A DNA stretch of 64,000 nt from assembly GCA_945860295.1 (NCBI GenBank), contig CAMAQH010000003.1, positions 62,001 through 126,000 on the forward strand, written 5' to 3'. The DNA comes from Prosthecobacter debontii (lineage in GTDB: Bacteria > Verrucomicrobiota > Verrucomicrobiia > Verrucomicrobiales > Verrucomicrobiaceae). Made by a program: the position numbers and the translations under genes. Position 1 is the stretch's first letter; every line of letters starts with the position of its first letter. Below, piece by piece: positions 22,243 to 33,906 of this stretch. The notes under the pieces were generated by a model. It saw nothing but the letters and a program-made list of their open reading frames with translations. It had not been told where the DNA came from and did not search any database.

Positions 22243-24846
22243 TCACTTCGCTCCGTGCTTGTCCTTCAGATGCATCACCGTCTCATCGGCGGTGTCTGCT
22301 TGAATCATGACTAAATCCCCCGGCTTGGCAGAGGCTAAAGCAAGATCGACAGCTTTGAGATGGCCTTGGATACACTCGATGCGTTTGGTTCTAGGCGCAG
22401 ACTCGAAACCCGTGGCGATGAGACGCATGATCTCACCCGACTCGCGACCACGCACATAGTCACCCTCAAAGAGCCAAACTTCGTCAAACTCCGCAGCGAG
22501 CATCCGGCCCTGCTCAATGATGTCGGAATCGCGGCGATCACCCGCCGAGGTGTAAACGACAATGCGGCGCTGATTGGTGAATGCACGCAGGCCGTCGAGT
22601 AAGGCTCGGAGTGCATCGACATTGTGCCCATAATCAACGATGACGGTGACGCCATTGAGATCGAGCACGTTAAATCGCCCAGCATTTTGATCCATGCTGG
22701 GGATGAATGTGCGCGCGCCCTGACGAATGAGATCATCATTAATTTCGAGTGCCCAGGCGGCGGCGACAGACGCGAGTGTGTTCTCAATCTGGAAGCCGAT
22801 GAGGCCACCGAGCGTGAGGGGGATTTCACTCAATGGCATGAAGACATCCTCTTTCGGTCCCGTGGCACGAATGATCTGACCGCTGCGAACGAAAATGACG
22901 CGCTCACCTTGAAAGCGATGCCGACTGATGACGGCGCTGTCTTCATCGAGCGCAAAGAAGATCGTTTTGCGCGGATAGGTCTCAGCCATTTTTACCACGA
23001 GCGGATCAGCCGCATTGAGCACCGCCATTCCCGTGGCTGAGACGGCAGCGACGATGCACTGCTTGACCTCGGCAAGCTGCTCGGCCGTGTCGATCTCGTT
23101 GATGCCGAGATGATCTCCTGCGCCGATGTTCGTTACGACGGCGACATCGCAGTGATCAAAGGCCAGCCCCTCGCGTAAAATGCCCCCGCGCGCCGTCTCA
23201 AGAACGGCGGCGTCACACAGCGGAAAGGAAAGGATGCTGCGTGCGCTTTTCGGCCCGCTGCAATCGCCGCTGTCGATCATGCGTGAGCCGACGAAAACGC
23301 CATCGGTACTTGTCAGTCCCACACGCCAGCCGTTTTGAGTCAGCAAATGCGCGATGAAGCGCGCCGTGGTCGTTTTGCCATTTACGCCAGTCACGGCCAC
23401 GATGGGAATGCGGCCGTTGCAATCGGCAGCAAACATCGTGTCGATCACCGCTTTACCGACGGGCCGAGCTTCGCCCTCTGAAGGATACAAATGCATGCGC
23501 AGACCGGGGCGCGCGTTTAGTTCTATGATGACGCCATTACGCGGACTGAGCGGCGCGCTGATGTCTGGCGCGATCATGTCGATGCCACAAATATCGAGGC
23601 CTACCGTCTGCGCAGCCTCTACCGCAGCCGCGCAGATCGTGGGGTGAACTTCCGCCGTGCAATCAACGGCGGTGCCTCCAGTGCTGAGATTTGCGTTACG
23701 GCGGATGAGGATCATGCGGCATTTTTCGGGCACCGATTCCGGCGTGCAGTCCTGCTCCGCCAGCACAGCCATAGCGACGGCATCAATACGGATCTTGCTC
23801 AGTGCCGCTGCATGATCTGAGGCACGACGCGGGTCACGGTTCTTCTCGGCGATGAGTTCTTGAATGCTACGCTCGCCATCACCAATGACATGTGCGGGAT
23901 GCCGACGAGATGCGGCGATGAGTTCACGCCCGATCACCAACACGCGGTAATCATCACCTTCAGCGAACTGCTCCACGAGCACGGAGTCACTCTCAGCAAA
24001 GGCAGCCTCGTAAGCCGTGGCAATCTGCTCTCGGGTGTAAAGATTCAAAGCCACGCCACGCCCTTGATTGCCATCCAGCGGCTTCACCACGACGGGCAGA
24101 CCGATCTCATTTGCCGCAGCCCAGGCATCATCCGCCGACTTCACCGGACGGCCCTGCGGCACAGGCAGACCGACTTCATTCAGCAGTCGTCGCGTCAGAT
24201 CTTTGTCTTGGACGATGTCCTCAGAGATCGCGCTCGTCTGGCTGGTGGCTGCTGCGAGAATTTTCTTTTGCTTCACGCCCCAGCCCAGTTGCACCAAGCT
24301 ACCTGACGTGAGTCGGCGCACGGGAATACCGCGCAACTTCGCCGCATCCACCATCGCCCGCGTACTGGGGCCGAGGCAGACCTCATTCGCAAGATCACTC
24401 AATTCGAGAATCGCTGCATTCACATCCAACACCTGCCCCCAGAGCGCCGCATCGATAATACGTCGTGCGAGTTGGAAGGCAGCACGCGCCACCGCCTCTT
24501 CGTCAAATTGCGTGATGATGCGTAGAACACGCGGCTCAGATGTCGGCATCACTTTGCCAAAAGTGACCTGCAAATCCGTGCGACTCTGTAGATGCAGCGT
24601 GATAAGCTGAAGCAGGCTCGCGAGCGTCTGCGTGTCGGGTTCATGCAATTCACGCACTGGCACTTCGAGCGTCGGCAGCCAAGAGACGAGCCAGTCCTTC
24701 CAGTTGAGCACGACGCCACTCAGCGGCGGAAATTCGACTCGACACTCCAAGACCGTATCACGCCCCCACAGATTCGGTCCGCGCAGCGCATGAATTTTGC
24801 GGGTTAGGGTGGAGCGAATTTCGATGGATGGAATAGTAGAAGACAA
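22243..24846 (-). CDS. cphA: Cyanophycin synthetase, full-length (CphA1 type)
   Basis: Polymerises aspartate and arginine into cyanophycin (multi-L-arginyl-poly-L-aspartate), an intracellular nitrogen store, using ATP. The 867-residue product has an N-terminal domain starting IHALRGPNLWG, an ATP-grasp domain (about 210-470) with VVKPLDGNQGRGV and NLSTGGTAVDC, and a Mur-ligase domain with P-loop VTGVNGKTTTA near 486-496 and the full C-terminal lid (VDYGHN, YTSAGDRRDSD). Length is typical. The frame has no ATG before the conserved start, so TTG at 24846 is used. It is divergent from an ABC/DUF1854 operon that occurs with CphA elsewhere. Confidence 0.93.
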   Translation of the reverse strand: MSSTIPSIEIRSTLTRKIHALRGPNLWGRDTVLECRVEFPPLSGVVLNWKDWLVSWLPTLEVPVRELHEPDTQTLASLLQLITLHLQSRTDLQVTFGKVMPTSEPRVLRIITQFDEEAVARAAFQLARRIIDAALWGQVLDVNAAILELSDLANEVCLGPSTRAMVDAAKLRGIPVRRLTSGSLVQLGWGVKQKKILAAATSQTSAISEDIVQDKDLTRRLLNEVGLPVPQGRPVKSADDAWAAANEIGLPVVVKPLDGNQGRGVALNLYTREQIATAYEAAFAESDSVLVEQFAEGDDYRVLVIGRELIAASRRHPAHVIGDGERSIQELIAEKNRDPRRASDHAAALSKIRIDAVAMAVLAEQDCTPESVPEKCRMILIRRNANLSTGGTAVDCTAEVHPTICAAAVEAAQTVGLDICGIDMIAPDISAPLSPRNGVIIELNARPGLRMHLYPSEGEARPVGKAVIDTMFAADCNGRIPIVAVTGVNGKTTTARFIAHLLTQNGWRVGLTSTDGVFVGSRMIDSGDCSGPKSARSILSFPLCDAAVLETARGGILREGLAFDHCDVAVVTNIGAGDHLGINEIDTAEQLAEVKQCIVAAVSATGMAVLNAADPLVVKMAETYPRKTIFFALDEDSAVISRHRFQGERVIFVRSGQIIRATGPKEDVFMPLSEIPLTLGGLIGFQIENTLASVAAAWALEINDDLIRQGARTFIPSMDQNAGRFNVLDLNGVTVIVDYGHNVDALRALLDGLRAFTNQRRIVVYTSAGDRRDSDIIEQGRMLAAEFDEVWLFEGDYVRGRESGEIMRLIATGFESAPRTKRIECIQGHLKAVDLALASAKPGDLVMIQADTADETVMHLKDKHGAK

Positions 24847-24909: not shown

Positions 24910-27195
24910 GTGAACGAGACGTCGCATTGCGTCTTACAACTGAAATCAAGACAGGCCGTCAGATTGACAATAACCGCAACCACGGGACTGTTCGCAGTCG
25001 ATTCCGTCCCTACTTTGCCCGCTCAAATCACCAGCCAAACTCACGAGATTCTACTCCAGCATGCCGAAAAGCAACTGGTCACCGGTGAGCGCATCATTGC
25101 TAGGCTGTTGATCGATCTGGACGCCAGTTTGCATTTCCACGGCGGACTCATCGTTTTGACTAATGCACGTCTGCTGCATGTCGAGGCTTCTCACTTCCAA
25201 GATTGGAATCTAGCAGCGGTGCAGGATTTAAAGCTGGAAGAGATGGGTGCCACGGCGGCCATTCATTTGATGCACTCAGAGGCAAGTGTGTGGCACTGGC
25301 GGATCACTTCAGGCCACCTGCGCGAGGTAGAGGCTTTTGTAGCAAAGTTTAAAGAACAGCGCGGCACGGCGACCTCTGAAAGTGACGAATCCGAGGATGA
25401 TGAGGATGTCTTTTCCGCTGAAGAACCCATCACTGAAACCTTCACGAATCTGCCACTCCTGCGGCTCTTCAAATTTTCCAGCAAGTGGTACAAGCTCATG
25501 CTACTAGGGTTCGTTCTCACCGTTGCAAGCACTGGCTCCGGCTTGGTCGGCCCGTGGCTTACGATGTCACTCGTCGATGATGTTCTCATCCCGTTGCAAA
25601 CTGCTACGAATGATGTGCTCGTTGGGCGAGTCTATCATTTCATGCTGATGCTGGCAGGCGCTGCTTTCGTGACATGGCTGCTCCAGTGGGCCACGACTTA
25701 TGTGATCTCGCGTGTGGCAGAGCGCGTCACCAGCCACATGCGGCGAGCCACGTTTGAGCATCTACAAAAGCTCTCGCTAACTTATTTTAACAAAAAACGC
25801 ACAGGTGATCTGATCTCACGAATCGGGTCGGACACGGACAACATCTCGCTCTTCATCTCAGTCGATTTCATCGACTTCGCCTGCGATGTACTGACGATTC
25901 TTTTTACTGCAGTGATTCTTTTTTCGCTCAATCCAATGCTCGCCTTTGCAGCCATCGGCCCGCTGCCGATCGTGGCCTGGCTGGTGCAGTGGGTGCGCAG
26001 CCATCTGCGTGGTGGCTTTGCTGCAGCGAGCCGTGCGTGGAGTGCGATGAACAGCGTCCTCTCTGACACGATCCCTGGTGTGCGGGTCGTCAAAGCCTTT
26101 GCGCAGGAGCAGCGTGAGATCGATCGCTTCCGTGAGCACGATCAGCAAATCTTTGACACCAATGACCGCGTGAATCGCACATGGTCGTTCTTTGAGCCAA
26201 CGATTAGCCTGCTCACAGACATCGGTCTGCTCATTGTCTGGAGCGTCGGCGCGTGGAGCGTCGCTGGCGGAAACACCACCGTCGGTGTGCTGACCGGCTT
26301 TGTTCTCTATGTGGGCAGATTCTACGGCAAGCTGGACAACATGAGCCGCTTCCTCGCCTCTGCACAGCGGGCGGCCACCAGCGCACACCGCATCTTCGAC
26401 ATCCTGGATGTGAAGCCCGACATGCCGATCACTCCAGGCATGCGTAAGGTTGGTCGCTTGAGCGGTGAGATCGAGTTTCGCAGCATCAAATTCCGCCACG
26501 GCTCACGTCAGATCATTCGTGGTATCGACTTGAAAATCGCACCCGGTGAAATGATCGGCCTCGTCGGCCCAAGTGGTGCCGGAAAGACAACGTTGGTTAA
26601 TCTCGCCTGCCGTTTCTTCGATGTAAGTGAGGGGGCCGTTCTGGTCGATGGACAGGACCTGCGCGAGATCGATGTCGTCGATTTCCGGCGTAATCTTGGC
26701 CTCGTTTTGCAGGAGCCTTACTTGTTCTTCGGCACCATCGCCGAAAACATCGCCTATGGAAAACCTGACGCGACGCGGGCAGAAATCATGGCGGCAGCGA
26801 AGGCAGCACGGGCGCATGATTTCATCCTGAAACTCACCGATGCGTATGACTCGATGGTCGGCGAGCGCGGGCAGCATCTCTCTGGCGGCGAGCGCCAGCG
26901 CATCAGCATCGCTCGGGCTTTGCTCATCGATCCAGCGATCTTGATTCTTGATGAAGCCACCTCGTCGGTGGACACTGAAACGGAGCGCGAGATCCAGGCT
27001 GCACTCGATCACCTCGTCAAAGGCCGCACCACTATCGCCATCGCGCATCGTCTTGGTACTTTACGAAAAGCAAACCGGCTCGTGGTTGTCGAAAATGGTG
27101 TGATCAGTGAAATCGGTACGCATGAAGACCTCATGAGTCGCAGCGGCACTTATGCACGTCTGCATCAGGCCATGGTGGAGGTGAACGCGGCATGA
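24910..27195 (+). CDS. Cyanophycin-cluster ABC transporter (fused permease and ATPase) with N-terminal PH-like region
   Basis: A 761-residue half-size ABC exporter-type protein. Residues about 45-150 look like a PH-like beta domain (GERIIARLLIDLDASLHFHG, LTNARLLHVEA), followed by an acidic linker. The membrane domain with six helices spans about 185-480. The ATPase has Walker A GPSGAGKTT near 553, signature HLSGGERQR and Walker B LILDEATSSVD. I recall the same architecture next to cyanophycin synthetases in Betaproteobacteria and others. The cargo is unknown. GTG at 24910 is preceded by AAGGA about ten bases upstream, one of the few SD-like sites here; the exact start is uncertain. It overlaps DUF1854 by 4 bases. 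Confidence 0.88.
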   Translation: MNETSHCVLQLKSRQAVRLTITATTGLFAVDSVPTLPAQITSQTHEILLQHAEKQLVTGERIIARLLIDLDASLHFHGGLIVLTNARLLHVEASHFQDWNLAAVQDLKLEEMGATAAIHLMHSEASVWHWRITSGHLREVEAFVAKFKEQRGTATSESDESEDDEDVFSAEEPITETFTNLPLLRLFKFSSKWYKLMLLGFVLTVASTGSGLVGPWLTMSLVDDVLIPLQTATNDVLVGRVYHFMLMLAGAAFVTWLLQWATTYVISRVAERVTSHMRRATFEHLQKLSLTYFNKKRTGDLISRIGSDTDNISLFISVDFIDFACDVLTILFTAVILFSLNPMLAFAAIGPLPIVAWLVQWVRSHLRGGFAAASRAWSAMNSVLSDTIPGVRVVKAFAQEQREIDRFREHDQQIFDTNDRVNRTWSFFEPTISLLTDIGLLIVWSVGAWSVAGGNTTVGVLTGFVLYVGRFYGKLDNMSRFLASAQRAATSAHRIFDILDVKPDMPITPGMRKVGRLSGEIEFRSIKFRHGSRQIIRGIDLKIAPGEMIGLVGPSGAGKTTLVNLACRFFDVSEGAVLVDGQDLREIDVVDFRRNLGLVLQEPYLFFGTIAENIAYGKPDATRAEIMAAAKAARAHDFILKLTDAYDSMVGERGQHLSGGERQRISIARALLIDPAILILDEATSSVDTETEREIQAALDHLVKGRTTIAIAHRLGTLRKANRLVVVENGVISEIGTHEDLMSRSGTYARLHQAMVEVNAA

Positions 27196-27614
27196 TCGAC
27201 CTCATCTCCATCCTCCACCAGCCTGACGTGCGTCCCATACGGCTCTTCCCTCTGACCGATCCAGCGCACTGGATCGCCATTCTGGATACGAAAGGGCTGG
27301 AGATCGCCTGCATCGAAGATCCGACCACGCTCGATGCTCCTCAACGCGCCGCGCTCGATGCGGCGCTTGCCAAGCGTCATTTCGTGCCGGTCATCCGCCG
27401 CATCGTGGCGATCACACGAGCTCCAGATGGTCACGACTGGCTCGTCGAAACCGACCGCGGCACAACGACCTTTCGCATCGAGACGGACGAGAGCATCCAG
27501 AGTCTTGGTGGCGGCCGTCTTGTGATCATCGACAAACTGGGCACGCGCTATCTCGTGCCAAAGATGACTGACTTAGATCGCGAGAGCCGGCGCAAACTCG
27601 AGCGATACTACTGA
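27192..27614 (+). CDS. DUF1854 protein, cyanophycin-associated
   Basis: A 140-residue cytoplasmic beta-rich protein of the DUF1854 family, whose molecular role is not known to me. Typical segments are IAILDTKGLEIACIEDP, RRIVAITRAPDGHDWLVETDRG and LGGGRLVIIDKLGTRYLVP. The family is usually encoded next to the cyanophycin-cluster ABC protein, and that holds here: its ATG overlaps the ABC stop in ATGA, which suggests coupled translation. It may regulate or gate the transporter; that is inference. The spermidine-synthase-like gene begins 7 bases downstream. Confidence 0.88.
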   Translation: MIDLISILHQPDVRPIRLFPLTDPAHWIAILDTKGLEIACIEDPTTLDAPQRAALDAALAKRHFVPVIRRIVAITRAPDGHDWLVETDRGTTTFRIETDESIQSLGGGRLVIIDKLGTRYLVPKMTDLDRESRRKLERYY

Positions 27615-27621
27615 CCCGTCT

Positions 27622-29406
27622 ATGAACCTCGTCTTTTGTTTGGTTAGCCTTCTCGGTGCCTTCCTGCCGTTTCAAGTGCAGCCCCTCATCAGCAAATTCA
27701 TCCTACCATGGTTCGGCGGCAGTCCCGGCGTGTGGACGACATGCATGCTGTTTTTCCTGGTCGTGTTGTTTGGTGGCTACAGCACAGCGCACTTGCTGGC
27801 GAAAGGTCGGCCACGCACACAGGCTTGGGTGCACGGTTCAGCGCTGCTTATCGCAGCCCTACTGCTGCCTATCGTGCTAGATGCGGCGCTGAAACCCACC
27901 AGAGCTGAAGAACCAGTCCTGCGTATTTTGATGCTGCTCGCATGGACCGTCGGCCTTCCACATCCGCAGACGGAAACACATGCTATCAAACCCACCTATA
28001 TACGCCGCGTGCTGTGGCTGCTGCTAGCAGGTTTTGCCGCACTGCTTCTGCTGAGCACCACCAATCATGTTTGTCAGGATGTCGCGATGATTCCGTTCTT
28101 ATGGGTCGCGCCTCTCAGTCTGTATCTAGTCTCACTCATCATCTGCTTTAATCATCCACGCTGGTATGCACGCAGCGCGTGGGCACTGCCGGCGCTGGCA
28201 CTGCTGTTCTATGGTAAGGCCATGTATGAGTTTGAAAATTGGACGCCGAGTTTTGTGGCTCAATTAGTCGTGCAGTTGGCCGCCATGTTCAACGTCTGCA
28301 TGGTTTGTCATGGAGAGCTCGCGCGCTTGAAGCCTGATAAAAAATTTCTCACAGAGTACTACCTACTGATGTCTGCCGGCGGTGCGCTGGGCGGGCTAAT
28401 CGTGAGCATCATGGTACCGCTGCTATTTGATACTTACTTGGAATGGTCACTGGCGCTGCTAGCGGGTTTCGCACTCGTCTCTTGGGCTGCGTTTGCGGGG
28501 CTGCCAGCCGTGTTGCGCAGTCGTCCTTGGCAGGTCGCATGGGGAATGTTGACGCTAGCAGGACTCATTTACATAGGCCGCTTGGAGTTCACTTTTGATG
28601 AGGAAAAAGAACTTTATCGTGACTTCTACGGACTGCTTTCCGTCTCCGAGTGCCAAGATGAGGACACGGGTGAAACGCTGCGCTCCTTCATCAGCGGCAA
28701 TGTCAAACATGGCCGACAAAACATAACGCCGACGCGGCGGCGTGATCCGCTGACCCATTACTCACGACCCACCGGAATCGGGCCTGCGCTTGAGACGCTG
28801 AAAAATCAGCCTGATGCCCGCGTTGGCGTCATCGGCATGGGCGCGGGCACCGTGGCCTGCTACGCTGAAAAAGGACAAACCTACCGCTTCTATGAGGTCA
28901 ATCCCAACGCCGAGCGGCTAGCATTGAAGTGGTTCACCTTCATCACAGACATGCAGACACGCGGCGCGGTTTACGAGCCCGTCATCGGTAATACACCCCT
29001 CACGCTGGAGCATGATAAACCACAGAACTTTGACGTGCTGCTGCTAGACGCCCTTAGCGGCGGCTCGGTGCCCGTGCATCTGCTCACGCGCGAGGCCTTT
29101 GAACTCTACCTGCGCCATCTAAAGCAAGACGGGATCATCGTCGTACGCATCACGAATCACTCGCTGAATCTCGCTCCCGTTGTCGCAGGAGTCGCGAGTG
29201 AGTTCGGCCTGCACAGCTCACGTCTAGCTAATGATTCAGACGAGGACGGCTGCTACCCCACGGATTACATGTTGCTGACTCGCAACGCCGTTTTCATTCA
29301 GGCGAATCCACCCATCGTCCCAGATTATGCGCGCGCTATCGACGTGCCGCTGTGGAACGATCCGCCACAATCTGTTTCAGATTCTGGACAATCGCTGACC
29401 GTATGA
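27622..29406 (+). CDS. Membrane protein with C-terminal spermidine-synthase-like domain
   Basis: A 594-residue fused protein. The first 330 residues hold about eight to ten hydrophobic helices, starting FLPFQVQPLISKFILPWFGG, a typical start of this family. From about 370 onward is a Rossmann-type aminopropyltransferase-like domain: VGVIGMGAGTVACY, FYEVNPNAERLAL, and DVLLLDALSGGSVPVHLLT where true spermidine synthases have their catalytic Asp region. Members of this family often lack proven synthase activity, so the reaction is open. It lies 7 bases after DUF1854 and overlaps the next gene by 4 bases, so it belongs to the cyanophycin-side operon. A link to arginine or polyamine metabolism is only a guess. 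Confidence 0.82.
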   Translation: MNLVFCLVSLLGAFLPFQVQPLISKFILPWFGGSPGVWTTCMLFFLVVLFGGYSTAHLLAKGRPRTQAWVHGSALLIAALLLPIVLDAALKPTRAEEPVLRILMLLAWTVGLPHPQTETHAIKPTYIRRVLWLLLAGFAALLLLSTTNHVCQDVAMIPFLWVAPLSLYLVSLIICFNHPRWYARSAWALPALALLFYGKAMYEFENWTPSFVAQLVVQLAAMFNVCMVCHGELARLKPDKKFLTEYYLLMSAGGALGGLIVSIMVPLLFDTYLEWSLALLAGFALVSWAAFAGLPAVLRSRPWQVAWGMLTLAGLIYIGRLEFTFDEEKELYRDFYGLLSVSECQDEDTGETLRSFISGNVKHGRQNITPTRRRDPLTHYSRPTGIGPALETLKNQPDARVGVIGMGAGTVACYAEKGQTYRFYEVNPNAERLALKWFTFITDMQTRGAVYEPVIGNTPLTLEHDKPQNFDVLLLDALSGGSVPVHLLTREAFELYLRHLKQDGIIVVRITNHSLNLAPVVAGVASEFGLHSSRLANDSDEDGCYPTDYMLLTRNAVFIQANPPIVPDYARAIDVPLWNDPPQSVSDSGQSLTV

Positions 29407-30560
29407 CCCGCCTCTCCTCGCTCGATGTGTATCGTGGAATCGTCATGTTCCTCGTCGGTATGCGCCTCATGGAGCTTGATGAAGTGGCGCTTAACTTTCC
29501 TGACAGTGCAGTCTGGCAATTCATCGGGTTTCATTCCTCTCACGTCCCGTGGGTTGGCTGCTCGCTCAATGACCTGATCCATCCCTCATTCGCGTTTCTA
29601 ACGGGCACAGCACTCGTGTTCTCAGTCTCATCACGAGTTAGCAAAGGGCAGTCGAAACGCAGCCTGACACTGCATGCACTATGGCGCTCTGGGGCTCTTA
29701 TTCTTCTCGGCATCTACATCCGCAGTATAGACCGTGACATTACAAACTGGACCTTTGACGAGACACTAACTCAAACTGGCCTCGGTTACATGCTGGTCTT
29801 CGCCCTAGCCTTCTGCGGTAATAAAACACGCTTGCTCTGGTGCAGCGGCTTGTTGGTCGCGCATTGGCTCATTTTTGCCCTTTACCCGATTTTGCCGCCG
29901 CATCTCGATCCCACGGCATTCAACGTGCCGGAAGGTTGGAGTCACGATTTCACCGGCTTTTTTGCCCACTGGAATCACAATCGCAATGCAGGCTGGGCTT
30001 TTGATCTTTGGCTGCTCAATACCTTCCCGCGCCTCTCCCCCTACGTCGGCTATTTGGGTGGCTACACGACGATCAATGTGCTCTCAACGATTCCGACGAT
30101 GATTCTCGGTTTAATGGCGGGGACGTGGCTGAAGCAAACCGCTCAACCTACGAAGTGTCTCGTCATCGCTGGCACATCCTGCATCGCCATCAGCTTGGCG
30201 ATGCAATTTGTTGGTATTTGCCCGATCGTTAAGCACCTCTGGACACCTTCCTGGGCGCTGTTCAGCGGCGGCTGCTGCTTCCTGATTCTGACGGCGATTC
30301 ATTACCTCGTCGATGTGTGCCAATGGCAGCGCTGGGCGTTTCCTTTCGTCGTCGTCGGCATGAACTCGCTGGCCTTTTATCTGATGCGACACGCCCTTGA
30401 TATCCCTTTGGCTGATAGCCTCAAGCAGCACTTGGGAACCCATGTTTTCCGAATCTTTGGCGATGCTTTGGCACCCGCTCTGATCGGTGCCTGTAGCTTA
30501 CTCATTCTGTGGCTCATCGTTTTATGGATGCACCGCAGGAAGCTATATCTCAGGCTATGA
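29403..30560 (+). CDS. DUF5009/HGSNAT-like multi-pass membrane protein
   Basis: A 385-residue integral membrane protein with about ten hydrophobic helices. The N-terminus RLSSLDVYRGIVMFLVGMRL matches the 'SLDxxRG' start of heparan-alpha-glucosaminide N-acetyltransferase-like and related acyltransferase families, often annotated DUF5009. Early His residues (FHSSHVPWVGCSLNDLIHPS) fit the proposed acyl-transfer site. Its ATG at 29403 overlaps the preceding stop in ATGA, the last link of a four-gene operon beginning with the ABC protein. It may acetylate a sugar or other envelope component; why it lies beside cyanophycin genes is unclear. Confidence 0.78.
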   Translation: MTRLSSLDVYRGIVMFLVGMRLMELDEVALNFPDSAVWQFIGFHSSHVPWVGCSLNDLIHPSFAFLTGTALVFSVSSRVSKGQSKRSLTLHALWRSGALILLGIYIRSIDRDITNWTFDETLTQTGLGYMLVFALAFCGNKTRLLWCSGLLVAHWLIFALYPILPPHLDPTAFNVPEGWSHDFTGFFAHWNHNRNAGWAFDLWLLNTFPRLSPYVGYLGGYTTINVLSTIPTMILGLMAGTWLKQTAQPTKCLVIAGTSCIAISLAMQFVGICPIVKHLWTPSWALFSGGCCFLILTAIHYLVDVCQWQRWAFPFVVVGMNSLAFYLMRHALDIPLADSLKQHLGTHVFRIFGDALAPALIGACSLLILWLIVLWMHRRKLYLRL

Positions 30561-30566
30561 AGTCGC

Positions 30567-31667
30567 TCAGACCAAGAGTGCATCCAGACCTTTGATGATG
30601 TCACCGTGAGTTGCAGTCACAAATTTGGTCGTCTCGCGCGTGGCATCCATGCAACCGCCGCCAGCATACACATTAAGCGGGTCACGCATGCGGTGCATGA
30701 GTTCATAAATTTTTGCGCAGGCCACTGGGTCGGCCAGGGTTTTTTCCACGAGTTGTTCCACCTTGGTTTCATCCATCTGCATCTCGCCTTCCGCATCCTG
30801 AAAAGCAGATTCGCGCCAGTGATAAATTTCGATGCACTTGGTTAGCACAGTGAAGGCCTGATCACACTTCCAGAAATTGGAGAACAAACCGCCGCCGAGA
30901 TAAAACACCCAAGACCCCTCATAGCCGGTGGCATCTTCGGAGGGTTCATCTGGATTGCGAAACCAAACACGATCCCCCGGCACATAGTAATGCATGGGCA
31001 AAGGCTGCTCCAAGGTTCCCACCTCATTCATGAAGACGTCATGAAAACGCCGCGAGGCTATCGCCTTAGTCTCCCATTGCTCCTGCAACCGCTGCAACAA
31101 TTTGGGGTGACGCTGCCGAGCCTCTTCAGCGATCGAAAGCAGGATCACGTACTCTGTAGCCCTGTAGCATGAGAATGAATACAGCGGGTCATCGAGCTTT
31201 GGCTGACAGGCTTTTCGCAGTGACTCGATCAGCGGACTACCCGGGATCAGGACAAAGCCTGTATCCTCAGAGTAGCACCAGCAATCGTTTGGCCGCTCAA
31301 CCGCCGTGGTGTGAAAGTTGAGACAAGTGCTGGTCGCGTTGCGAGCGATGTTGCGACGAATATTTACCGAGGAGATTAGTTCTTCTGCACTGGGAAATTC
31401 CAGCGCTAGCGGGCTGTTTAGCAGTGTCAGCCAAATCTCCCGCAGCAGGTCATCATCACTGTCATTCACTGAGAGTTTCAGCGTGGCTGCGAGAGCCAGC
31501 GTATCAAAATCGGGCATCCACGTTTGAGCCTCAGCCGTCAAACTCAGGTGCAGTGAATCATCATCAGTCTGCACTGAAGCAACGTGTATCTCAATGCCCA
31601 ATCGCTGCCATTCTTGCTGTAGCATGGGCAGCTCCGAGCAGACTGGGATACGCACGCCTATCTGCAT
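30567..31667 (-). CDS. Tgl-like (spore transglutaminase-fold) protein downstream of cphA2-like gene
   Basis: A 366-residue soluble protein. From about residue 95 on it follows, from memory, Bacillus protein-glutamine gamma-glutamyltransferase Tgl: NIRRNIA against RMNIVAA, YSFSCYRATEYV against YAFECATAIVI, and YVPGDRVWFRNPD...EGSWVFYLG against FLGDCLYFKNP...RGENVILLG. C167 sits at the catalytic Cys position. However, the two Glu residues that assist catalysis in Tgl appear as S166 and S252, and the His near 200 of Tgl appears as N264. Residues 1-90 are an extra N-terminal region. Activity is therefore doubtful or altered. It follows the cphA2-like gene by 85 bases on the same strand. Confidence 0.6.
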   Translation of the reverse strand: MQIGVRIPVCSELPMLQQEWQRLGIEIHVASVQTDDDSLHLSLTAEAQTWMPDFDTLALAATLKLSVNDSDDDLLREIWLTLLNSPLALEFPSAEELISSVNIRRNIARNATSTCLNFHTTAVERPNDCWCYSEDTGFVLIPGSPLIESLRKACQPKLDDPLYSFSCYRATEYVILLSIAEEARQRHPKLLQRLQEQWETKAIASRRFHDVFMNEVGTLEQPLPMHYYVPGDRVWFRNPDEPSEDATGYEGSWVFYLGGGLFSNFWKCDQAFTVLTKCIEIYHWRESAFQDAEGEMQMDETKVEQLVEKTLADPVACAKIYELMHRMRDPLNVYAGGGCMDATRETTKFVTATHGDIIKGLDALLV

Positions 31668-31752: not shown

Positions 31753-33906
31753 TCAGGTGTAGCTCCGCAATCCATCCACCATCGCCGCATCATTCAATCC
31801 CATGGCCCAGGCGGCACCGATGGCGGCAAGAACGTTTTCGAGATGAAAGGCAAAGTGGCCACTCATAGGCAGCGCCACCTCACTTATGGCACAGAGTCTG
31901 CGGGCCGAATCGCCCTCAGCCAGAAGGATCGATTCATCCTGTACGAGCACCACACGACCACCACTCGCACGTTGCTCATTGAGGTTGGCATTCGTCGCAT
32001 CACGGGAGAAAAGCAGCACGCTGCCTTTGCAAAATGAAGCCATGCTAGCGACTTCGGCATCATCGGCATTCAGGACAGTCGTTCCGCCTGGCAGCACGAC
32101 ATCGACAACACAGCGCTTGACCTTCGTCATCTGCTCCAGCGTGTCGATATAGCCCATGCCTAGATGCTCCCCGCCGACGTTCAACACCACGCCGACTTGG
32201 CAGCGGTCATAGCCTATGCCTTCGAAGATGATGGACTCGGCACTCGTCTCACAGATGGCGATTTCAGTCCACGGATGTAGCAGCACGCCCTGCGTGCCAA
32301 AGAGGCGATCACCTTGCTTTGACTCCGCCGTGCGCGCTCCGAACTGAAGTCCATCGCTGTGACACACGCCGAGAAACTTGCCGGTTGATTTTAAAAGATG
32401 TGCCAGAAGCTTTGCCGTGGTCGTTTTGCCGTGTGTGCCCGTGATGCCGATCACGGGGATGCGACCATCCTCTCCCGGTGGGAAAAGCATGTCGACGATC
32501 GCCTCGCCGACAAGTCTCACCTTACCCACGGCGGGCTTCAAGTGCATCAGCAGGCCAGGGCTGGCATTGATCTCGACGATGGCCCCGCCTTGCTGCTCCA
32601 GCGGTTTAGAAATGTCTTCACACACCACATCCACGCCACATATATCCAACCCCGCAACCTTCGCTGCCGTCACCACATGATCGCGCACACTCGGGTGGAC
32701 ATCATCGGTGATGTCGATAGCCCAGTTAGCAAATCGAGCCACCATGACGCGCTCACCATCATGCGGCACCGAGTCAGGCTGGCAGCCTTGATTTAGTAGA
32801 TCCGCAAGGATCACCGGGTCCCATGTAGACGTGTTGATTTTATCCCAGGGGCAAGTCTCAAGCTCGCCACGGCGGGGGTCAGAGTTCAACTGCTCTTCGA
32901 CCAACTGCACGATGCTACCCTTACCATCTCCCACGACAATCGCCGGATCACCACGGCTTGCAGCGATCATGTCACTGCCAACCACCAGCAGGCGGTGATC
33001 CACCCCAGGAATGAAGCGCTCCACCATCACCCCCGTGCCCTCTTTGAGAGCTTGCGGATAGGCTTCAGTGACTTGCTCACGAGTGCCGAGATCAATAAAC
33101 ACACCGCGACCGTGATTGGCATCCGTCGGCTTCACGACGACGGGCAAGCCCACCTCTTCAGCCGCGTTCCAGGCATCAGCCGGATCACTCACCACACGGC
33201 CTGCGGGCACCGGCACACCTGCCTGTCTCAGGAAAGTGCGCGTGAGATCTTTGTCTTGGGCGATGTATTCCGCGATAGCCCCCGTGCGGTCAGATTCCGC
33301 CGTCCAGATACGGCGCTGTTTCACGCCTTGACCGAGCTGTATCAAACTGCGCCCTTCCTGCAAGCGCCGCCAAGGAATACCGCGCTCCTTCGCAGCATCC
33401 ACGATCGCTTTCGTGCTAGGCCCGAGCGCATTGCGATCCACCACATCCTGCAAACGAGTCACTTCTGCCGCGACATCAAACGTTCCGCCTGAATAGGCCG
33501 CCAGCAGCAGCTCCCGCGCACTGCGCAGACACTCCTGCACCACCACCTCATCTAGATAACGAACGATGACTTTGTAGAGGCCTTCCACACACGTCTCCCG
33601 TGCTTTACCAAAGCCTAGCTGGTGACCCGCAAGCGTCTGCAACTCCAGCGTCACATGCTCCAAGATATGCGCAGGGTAAGTTCCACGATCTAACCGCTGA
33701 AAGAAGCCGCCGCGCTCACCCACACTGCACCTATGCTCGATCATTCCCGGTAGCCATGACTTGAGTCGCTCGTTAAATCCCGTGATCTCCTCCGAAGACG
33801 CATCCTTAAGGCTGCCCAGATCCACCCAAGCTTCCAGCACAGGATAATTTGCCCAGATATTGGGACCGCGCAGGAGATGGATTTCACGAATGTCGAGATC
33901 AGGCAT
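31753..33906 (-). CDS. Cyanophycin synthetase-like protein, C-terminally shortened (CphA2 type)
   Basis: A 717-residue paralogue of the CphA at 22243-24846. It has the N-terminal LLRGPNIWANYPVLEAW, an ATP-grasp domain with VVKPTDANHGRGV, and a Mur-ligase domain with P-loop GITGTHGKTTT near 489. It stops about 120 residues early, just after GLRSYT, so the Mur-ligase lid domain is missing. The ATP-grasp segment NLSTGGTA of CphA1 reads RFANWAID here. Both traits fit CphA2-type enzymes, which re-polymerise beta-Asp-Arg dipeptides. The 85 bases downstream hold no remnant of the missing end, so the short form looks natural. The start at 33906 (MPDLDIREIH) is the family start. Confidence 0.87.
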   Translation of the reverse strand: MPDLDIREIHLLRGPNIWANYPVLEAWVDLGSLKDASSEEITGFNERLKSWLPGMIEHRCSVGERGGFFQRLDRGTYPAHILEHVTLELQTLAGHQLGFGKARETCVEGLYKVIVRYLDEVVVQECLRSARELLLAAYSGGTFDVAAEVTRLQDVVDRNALGPSTKAIVDAAKERGIPWRRLQEGRSLIQLGQGVKQRRIWTAESDRTGAIAEYIAQDKDLTRTFLRQAGVPVPAGRVVSDPADAWNAAEEVGLPVVVKPTDANHGRGVFIDLGTREQVTEAYPQALKEGTGVMVERFIPGVDHRLLVVGSDMIAASRGDPAIVVGDGKGSIVQLVEEQLNSDPRRGELETCPWDKINTSTWDPVILADLLNQGCQPDSVPHDGERVMVARFANWAIDITDDVHPSVRDHVVTAAKVAGLDICGVDVVCEDISKPLEQQGGAIVEINASPGLLMHLKPAVGKVRLVGEAIVDMLFPPGEDGRIPVIGITGTHGKTTTAKLLAHLLKSTGKFLGVCHSDGLQFGARTAESKQGDRLFGTQGVLLHPWTEIAICETSAESIIFEGIGYDRCQVGVVLNVGGEHLGMGYIDTLEQMTKVKRCVVDVVLPGGTTVLNADDAEVASMASFCKGSVLLFSRDATNANLNEQRASGGRVVLVQDESILLAEGDSARRLCAISEVALPMSGHFAFHLENVLAAIGAAWAMGLNDAAMVDGLRSYT

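Follow-up and report, generated by a model that had tools for sequence, protein, structure and literature searches.

What does a transglutaminase-like protein do beside genes for cyanophycin synthesis, if the residues that assist catalysis in transglutaminases have been replaced? The question is raised by a gene at positions 30567-31667 (minus strand) of the window, i.e., the whole stretch of 64,000 nucleotides analyzed here. Pfam, an AlphaFold model and a structural match agree in describing its 366 aa product (hereafter TGL) as a Tgl-fold protein with altered catalytic residues. It lies on the same strand as a cphA2-like gene, downstream of it by a gap of 85 bp, which bears out the arrangement described in the first-pass annotation.

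A predicted Tgl fold under purifying selection

TGL matches the Pfam family of the same name (PF20085) over residues 70-277 with an E-value of 5.5e-26 and 91.8 bits (cut-off 23.7), and misses the NCBIfam equivalog model for Tgl (NF002869) with 19.2 bits against a cut-off of 307. Searched with phmmer against the sequences of the PDB, the protein reached the Geobacillus Tgl (7c9j) at E = 2.9e-4. A profile built from 26 relatives recovered this entry at 7.1e-10 and the B. subtilis Tgl (4p8i) at 7.4e-5, the identity to these two being 15-19%. The AlphaFold2 model, computed from a 26-sequence alignment, has a mean pLDDT of 91.8 and a pTM of 0.93. Among its 110 Foldseek matches at E up to 10, two fell below 0.001, namely 4p8i (6.2e-8) and 7c9j (8.6e-7). 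VIA-align placed the same two entries first (4p8i, Z 17.6, rmsd 3.5, 232 residues aligned of the 242-residue target) and second (7c9j, Z 14.8), followed at Z 6.6 by an N-acetylmuramoyl-L-alanine amidase as the best non-Tgl entry and, from Z 5.1 downwards, by a phage baseplate protein as well as NlpC/P60 domains, a ranking that covers re-aligned Foldseek candidates and does not speak to structural relatives beyond Tgl. The predicted model thus firmly supports a Tgl fold for residues 4-355, and the likeness that had at first been read from the letters alone was recovered both by profile search and by superposition on the B. subtilis enzyme. Pfam, the structural match and the profile search rule out a chance resemblance.

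The window copy shows purifying selection, with pN/pS values of 0.18-0.33 against eight relatives at synonymous sites that are near saturation, and together with the open reading frame this rules out a degenerate pseudogene in the window. Frameshifted or truncated copies do exist in at least two genomes of the genus (L035 and L037).

A remodelled active site

The catalytic dyad of B. subtilis Tgl consists of Cys116 and Glu187, for which Glu115 can substitute; activity was undetectable in the E115A, C116A and H200A variants and about 60% of it was left in E187A (PMC6490927). According to the same source, Arg185 is a residue of the front (Gln-side, acyl-donor) entrance of the substrate tunnel, His200 is located at the back entrance and is required for overall activity, and Tyr171, Asn188 and His200 are tunnel residues important to activity (PMC6490927).

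We compared these positions in 31 members of the main clade (26 from alignment A2 and five more). The nucleophile position is kept as Cys in all of them (C167; codon 31167-31169, minus strand), and Ser is found throughout at the positions of Glu115 (S166; codon 31170-31172, minus strand) and Glu187 (S252; codon 30912-30914, minus strand), so that the acid on which the Tgl dyad depends, Glu187 or Glu115 in its stead, is present at neither place. The alignments thereby agree with the three residues named in the first-pass annotation. Its reading of the His position as N264 held in so far as no His occurs there, but ungapped counting from E187 assigns Tgl His200 to F265, with N264 beside it, and neither column contains a His in any of the 31 rows. 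No His was invariant among those counted (H226 is His in 24/31 and H283 in 29/31). W235, W253 and F265, which stand in the window protein for Tyr171, Asn188 and His200, are invariant in the 31 members, as are C339, D341, R344 and E345 near the C-terminus. By profile alignment, Arg185 corresponds to E250 (codon 30918-30920, minus strand), a Glu in all 31 sequences. The window protein thus belongs to a conserved subfamily whose active site has been remodelled.

For comparison outside the window's phylum we used 250 genomes from the order to which Limnohabitans radicicola belongs, the Burkholderiales. Eight of these genomes, all with two copies of CphA, encode a second, more distant Tgl-related clade (L103:16733-17998, plus strand; L105:5081-6337, plus strand; L106, L108 and L110-L113). 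This second clade retains the Cys (in a GCYT motif) and the same GYEGS stretch, and six of its eight proteins have an apparent N-terminal signal sequence as judged by eye.

How should such an active site be read? One explanation is a true transglutaminase whose acid has moved by two residues, E250 serving for E187, and which would cross-link proteins or fix a lysine-containing polymer to protein. The overall fold is kept, and the Glu two positions from the lost Glu187 is invariant not only in the main clade (31/31) but also in all seven second-clade rows that were read in the right frame. However, the tunnel residues relevant to Tgl activity (Tyr171, Asn188 and His200; PMC6490927) are W235, W253 and F265 here, the equivalog score stays at 19.2 against the required 307, and a site deprived of both Glu residues and the His speaks against an ordinary transglutaminase activity. 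We consider this explanation improbable.

The main rival to a cysteine enzyme, the reading that we prefer, is a non-catalytic polymer binder or scaffold, in which the Tgl tunnel, turned into a groove, would bind cyanophycin-like chains or the CphA pair, and the function of Cys167 would be structural or redox. It would account for the loss of the dyad Glu pair and the His in 31/31 members, given that E115A by itself kills Tgl (PMC6490927), and a related fold offers a precedent for such a change, the NlpC/P60 entry 4jxb of RipD (Z 4.3), which is titled as a non-catalytic, peptidoglycan-binding domain. But Cys167 and the residues next to it show no variation at all in two phyla, and the Cys and GYEGS are kept even in the more distant clade, so that we regard a pure binder as possible but doubtful.

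Gene neighbourhoods

The cphA2-like gene occupies 31753-33906 (minus strand) and encodes an N domain, an ATP-grasp domain and a Mur middle domain, with no Mur C-lobe. Its open reading frame extends to 34014, and the start at 33906 is inferred from its Met37, where the proteins of most relatives compared within the genus have their first residue. The sequence scores higher with the CphA1-type structure 7wac (532 bits) than with the CphA2 structure 8fxh (165 bits). The second synthetase gene of the window, cphA1-like, is found at 22243-24846 (minus strand) and encodes 867 aa with a Mur C-lobe and a weak N domain. We compared nine proteins of each kind at the G-domain residues described for TeCphA1 (PMC9427784), with residue numbers read off the 7wac alignment. 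His267 and Arg309 are retained in all nine CphA2-like proteins, from which the Mur C-lobe and the STGG stretch around Ser396 are missing; Arg458 is replaced by Leu in eight of them and by Asn in one. All nine CphA1-like proteins have the C-lobe, the STGG stretch and Arg458, but their N domain is weak and Gln takes the place of His267. With these opposite losses of residues and domains, the two proteins may form a complementary pair.

Between the two synthetase genes, on the plus strand, are encoded an ABC exporter (24910-27195), matching the NCBIfam model NF052233, "cyanophycin metabolism-associated ABC transporter," with 976 bits (cut-off 880), a DUF1854 protein (27192-27614), which scores over the cut-off of Pfam PF08909 and, with 127.9 bits, below that of NF052234 (150), and a membrane protein (29352-30560) related to the glucosamine N-acetyltransferase NagX (E 1e-31; 110 bits, cut-off 480). 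An MFS/spermidine-synthase-like protein at 27622-29406 is part of the cluster in three genomes only (the window, L041 and L062), and relative to the other two a stretch of about 86-88 residues is missing from the window copy after residue 114.

As far as contigs extend, the usual order in the window's genus is cphA2-like and TGL, then on the opposite strand the NagX-like, DUF1854 and ABC exporter genes, and finally cphA1-like. The cphA2-like gene adjoins TGL or its remnant in 16 of the 17 carriers of the genus, the window included, and in the seventeenth (L036) the contig begins inside TGL. The NagX-like gene is usually adjacent as well, with no match in L027.

Clusters of this kind also occur beyond the genus: the Paralcaligenes locus L055 combines TGL, DUF1854, ABC, cphA2-like and cphA1-like genes, and in G440 (L104) both synthetase genes are located beside TGL. 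Among Burkholderiales of the main clade, however, TGL is near CphA in only one of the 18 carriers that have CphA; in the other 17 the two are separated by 270 kb or more, or fall on different contigs. These distances refute, for Burkholderiales, the idea that TGL always neighbours cphA2.

Nor is there a constant second neighbour among the 21 betaproteobacterial loci. Within 5 kb of TGL we counted Creatininase-family genes at five, Acyl_transf_3 genes at four and aat at three of them, and ABC-cassette proteins of several kinds are encoded nearby in 10/21. The Creatininase-family genes (L061:10945-11778, minus strand; L057, L060, L063 and L067; Pfam run on two of the five) are directly convergent with TGL in L057, L060, L061 and L063. 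Acyl_transf_3 membrane proteins flank TGL in L054 (8646-9671, plus strand), L058 (1935-2984, plus strand), L064 (8596-9762, minus strand) and L065 (8708-9796, minus strand), i.e., in 4/21 betaproteobacterial loci, and the flanking membrane protein of the Verrucomicrobial genus is the NagX-like one.

Distribution and likely transfer between phyla

A scan of one genome per species (84,980 species), which used two conserved peptides as seeds and thus covered relatives that contain them, yielded 32 distinct loci, 16 of them Verrucomicrobial (two titled Prosthecobacter). The other 16, at 43-53% identity, belong mostly to Comamonadaceae and to other Betaproteobacteria, named carriers including Paralcaligenes, Limnohabitans and a Rhodocyclaceae MAG; for two the title reads just "bacterium." In the window's order TGL was present in 17 of the 288 genomes sampled, all of them from the window's genus (one of 50 genera), and when 387 genomes of the phylum were searched with a profile, it was found in the window's own genome alone, which speaks against a wider spread there. 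CphA itself is rare in this phylum (2/184 genomes). Carriage on plasmids was rejected, as 72,556 plasmid records contained no match. The ten Verrucomicrobial rows of a 37-protein tree form one group (support 100/99), and with the second clade as outgroup they fall among the betaproteobacterial rows. The deciding fork (93/93) is below the starred level; a transfer of TGL between phyla is therefore likely from the tree, though not fixed.

Co-occurrence with cyanophycin synthetases

All 32 named genomes with TGL contain two matches to Cyanophycin_syn (PF18921). In the window's genus, for which 48 genomes of the 288-genome order sample were counted, CphA is present in 23, and TGL is found in 17 of these 23 and in none of the 25 without CphA (17/17 carriers vs 6/31 non-carriers with CphA; Fisher 2e-8, relatedness ignored). 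The Burkholderiales sample has CphA in 92/250 genomes and TGL in 25, and 24 of these 25 carriers have CphA (Fisher 8e-11 against the overall frequency, relatedness again ignored). In the lone exception, G472, TGL lies at the end of a contig and CphA gave no match. Conversely, TGL is absent from 6/23 CphA genomes of the genus and from 61 of the 85 Burkholderiales genomes with two copies. The tie of TGL to cyanophycin genes is thus real as a genome-level co-occurrence in two phyla, and TGL is an accessory, not an obligate, part of the two-copy CphA system. The link to cyanophycin genes suspected at first survives in this form, and not as the constant vicinity to cphA2 that had been proposed as its test (16/17 in the genus, 1/18 in the Burkholderiales main clade). 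Of the two results named beforehand as fatal to the first-pass reading, a fold foreign to Tgl and NlpC/P60 or homologues scattered independently of cyanophycin genes, neither was obtained, so that this reading is partly supported.

An association of this sort could also arise if TGL were a passenger that rides in CphA genomes for ecological or phylogenetic reasons, with no role in cyanophycin metabolism. The frequent distance from CphA in Burkholderiales would fit, as would the 16 non-Verrucomicrobial loci, where CphA falls within the fetched flanks at L055 only; the tests ignore relatedness and the gene is accessory. Yet the co-occurrence is found in two phyla and adjacency is seen in both, and we therefore rate a mere passenger as quite unlikely.

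Two-copy CphA genomes and cyanophycinase

Two or more CphA matches were found in 85 genomes of the Burkholderiales sample and a single match in seven. The two-copy genomes are marked almost perfectly by DUF1854, which is present in 84/85 of them vs 0/165 others (0/7 single-copy and 0/158 CphA-less genomes). Cyanophycinase scores over its model cut-off in 7/7 single-copy, 5/85 two-copy (G340, G375, G387, G420 and G531) and 5/158 CphA-less genomes, and counting sub-cut-off matches with E up to 0.001 raises the two-copy figure to 9/85. Provided that the model can be relied upon, these matches contradict, in the present sample, an older claim that no betaproteobacterial genome has a cyanophycinase (PMC5178258).

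Could TGL have taken the place of cyanophycinase? A mutual exclusion is unsupported: cyanophycinase occurs in 2/24 two-copy genomes with TGL (G375 and G420) vs 3/61 without, so there is no sign of a one-for-one replacement. Since 61/85 two-copy genomes do without TGL, it is also not a general answer to the missing cyanophycinase. In the window's genus, the six CphA genomes without TGL (L114-L119) all keep the cphA1-like, ABC, DUF1854 and cphA2-like genes, and two of them encode a cyanophycinase-like S51 protein with a lipoprotein-like N-terminus (by eye) between cphA2-like and DUF1854, where TGL is found elsewhere (L117:5264-6364, minus strand; L118:6618-7748, plus strand). The copy of L117 scores 109.7 bits with the cyanophycinase model (cut-off 126.6). 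S51 proteins are thus present in 2/6 of these genomes and in 0/17 TGL carriers of the genus, although the numbers are small.

A proposed role for TGL

We tentatively prefer to see TGL as a cysteine enzyme whose targets would be the side-chain isopeptide bonds of a polymer resembling cyanophycin, accessory to the two-copy CphA system, and consider this reading possible, at somewhat less than an even chance. A Tgl-fold protein would have been recruited to a polymer whose makers mostly lack cyanophycinase. Cys167 would act as thiol nucleophile on a side-chain amide, as that of Tgl does on glutamine, the substrate presumably being the beta-Asp-Arg (or beta-Asp-Lys) isopeptide of the polymer or of a fragment, and the thioester would be handed to water or to another amine, amounting to hydrolysis or transfer. 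The invariant E250 on the acyl-donor side of the tunnel could face the cationic Arg side chain or replace the lost Glu. As a net effect, the polymer would be trimmed, remodelled or attached in cells mostly without a recognised cyanophycinase.

The preferred reading draws on the fold (Z 17.6 vs 6.6 for the best non-Tgl entry), the co-occurrence in two phyla, the cphA2-like adjacency in 16/17 carriers of the genus, the scarcity of cyanophycinase in two-copy genomes and the S51 protein in TGL's place in 2/6. The invariance of C167, S166, E250, S252, W235 and W253 in 31/31 members also counts for a function, since in a dead paralogue these positions should have drifted. Against it stand the effect of E115A alone in Tgl, when TGL has lost both Glu as well as the His and keeps no invariant His among those counted, the 61/85 two-copy genomes that do without TGL, a cyanophycinase no less frequent in TGL carriers, the damaged copies in L035 and L037, the CphA-less G472, the mostly distant positions of TGL and CphA in Burkholderiales and the neglect of relatedness in the Fisher tests.

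A bolder version, which we think unlikely, is that a Tgl-fold thiol isopeptidase or transpeptidase takes over polymer processing from cyanophycinase by means of a relocated acid, E250, with the second clade doing the same outside the cytoplasm. The polymer, made and perhaps exported by the two CphA copies, the ABC transporter and DUF1854, would then be opened or transferred at the beta-Asp-Arg isopeptide.

Many Betaproteobacteria have two cyanophycin synthetases, mostly without a recognised cyanophycinase (5/85 two-copy genomes over cut-off), and a conserved Tgl-fold family that keeps its Cys and is tied to CphA in two phyla represents a testable candidate partner, in part of the genomes only. 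If the preferred reading is true, a transglutaminase fold would have been redirected to a new substrate via a rebuilt active site.

Comparison with known systems

Clusters with two cphA copies and an ABC transporter but without cphB have been described as "Group 1" cphA clusters (PMC10687191), and the core of the window's cluster is the same. Window genes are matched by the models NF052233 and NF052234, in the case of DUF1854 below cut-off. The Tgl-like partner is named neither in these NCBIfam matches nor in the available part of the cluster description (PMC10687191). We found no paper linking transglutaminase, gamma-glutamyltransferase or Tgl to cyanophycin, and no link to Tgl in the literature on DUF1854 or "cyanophycin metabolism-associated" proteins, in searches that covered few subscription papers and preprints. 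The core of the cluster is thus known already, and the partner appears to be undescribed in the literature searched.

With the Tgl of B. subtilis and Geobacillus the protein shares the predicted fold over nearly the whole chain, the position of the Cys and a Pfam TGL match over cut-off. It differs from them in the co-occurring cyanophycin genes and in its carriers, which are Verrucomicrobial and Burkholderiales-type genomes. To cyanophycinase (peptidase S51, CphB), which by Pfam is not of the Tgl-fold family, the parallel is one of position only, i.e., the S51 protein in TGL's place in two of the six TGL-less genomes of the genus. If the preferred reading is right, the two would attack different bonds of the polymer, TGL the side-chain isopeptide and cyanophycinase the backbone.
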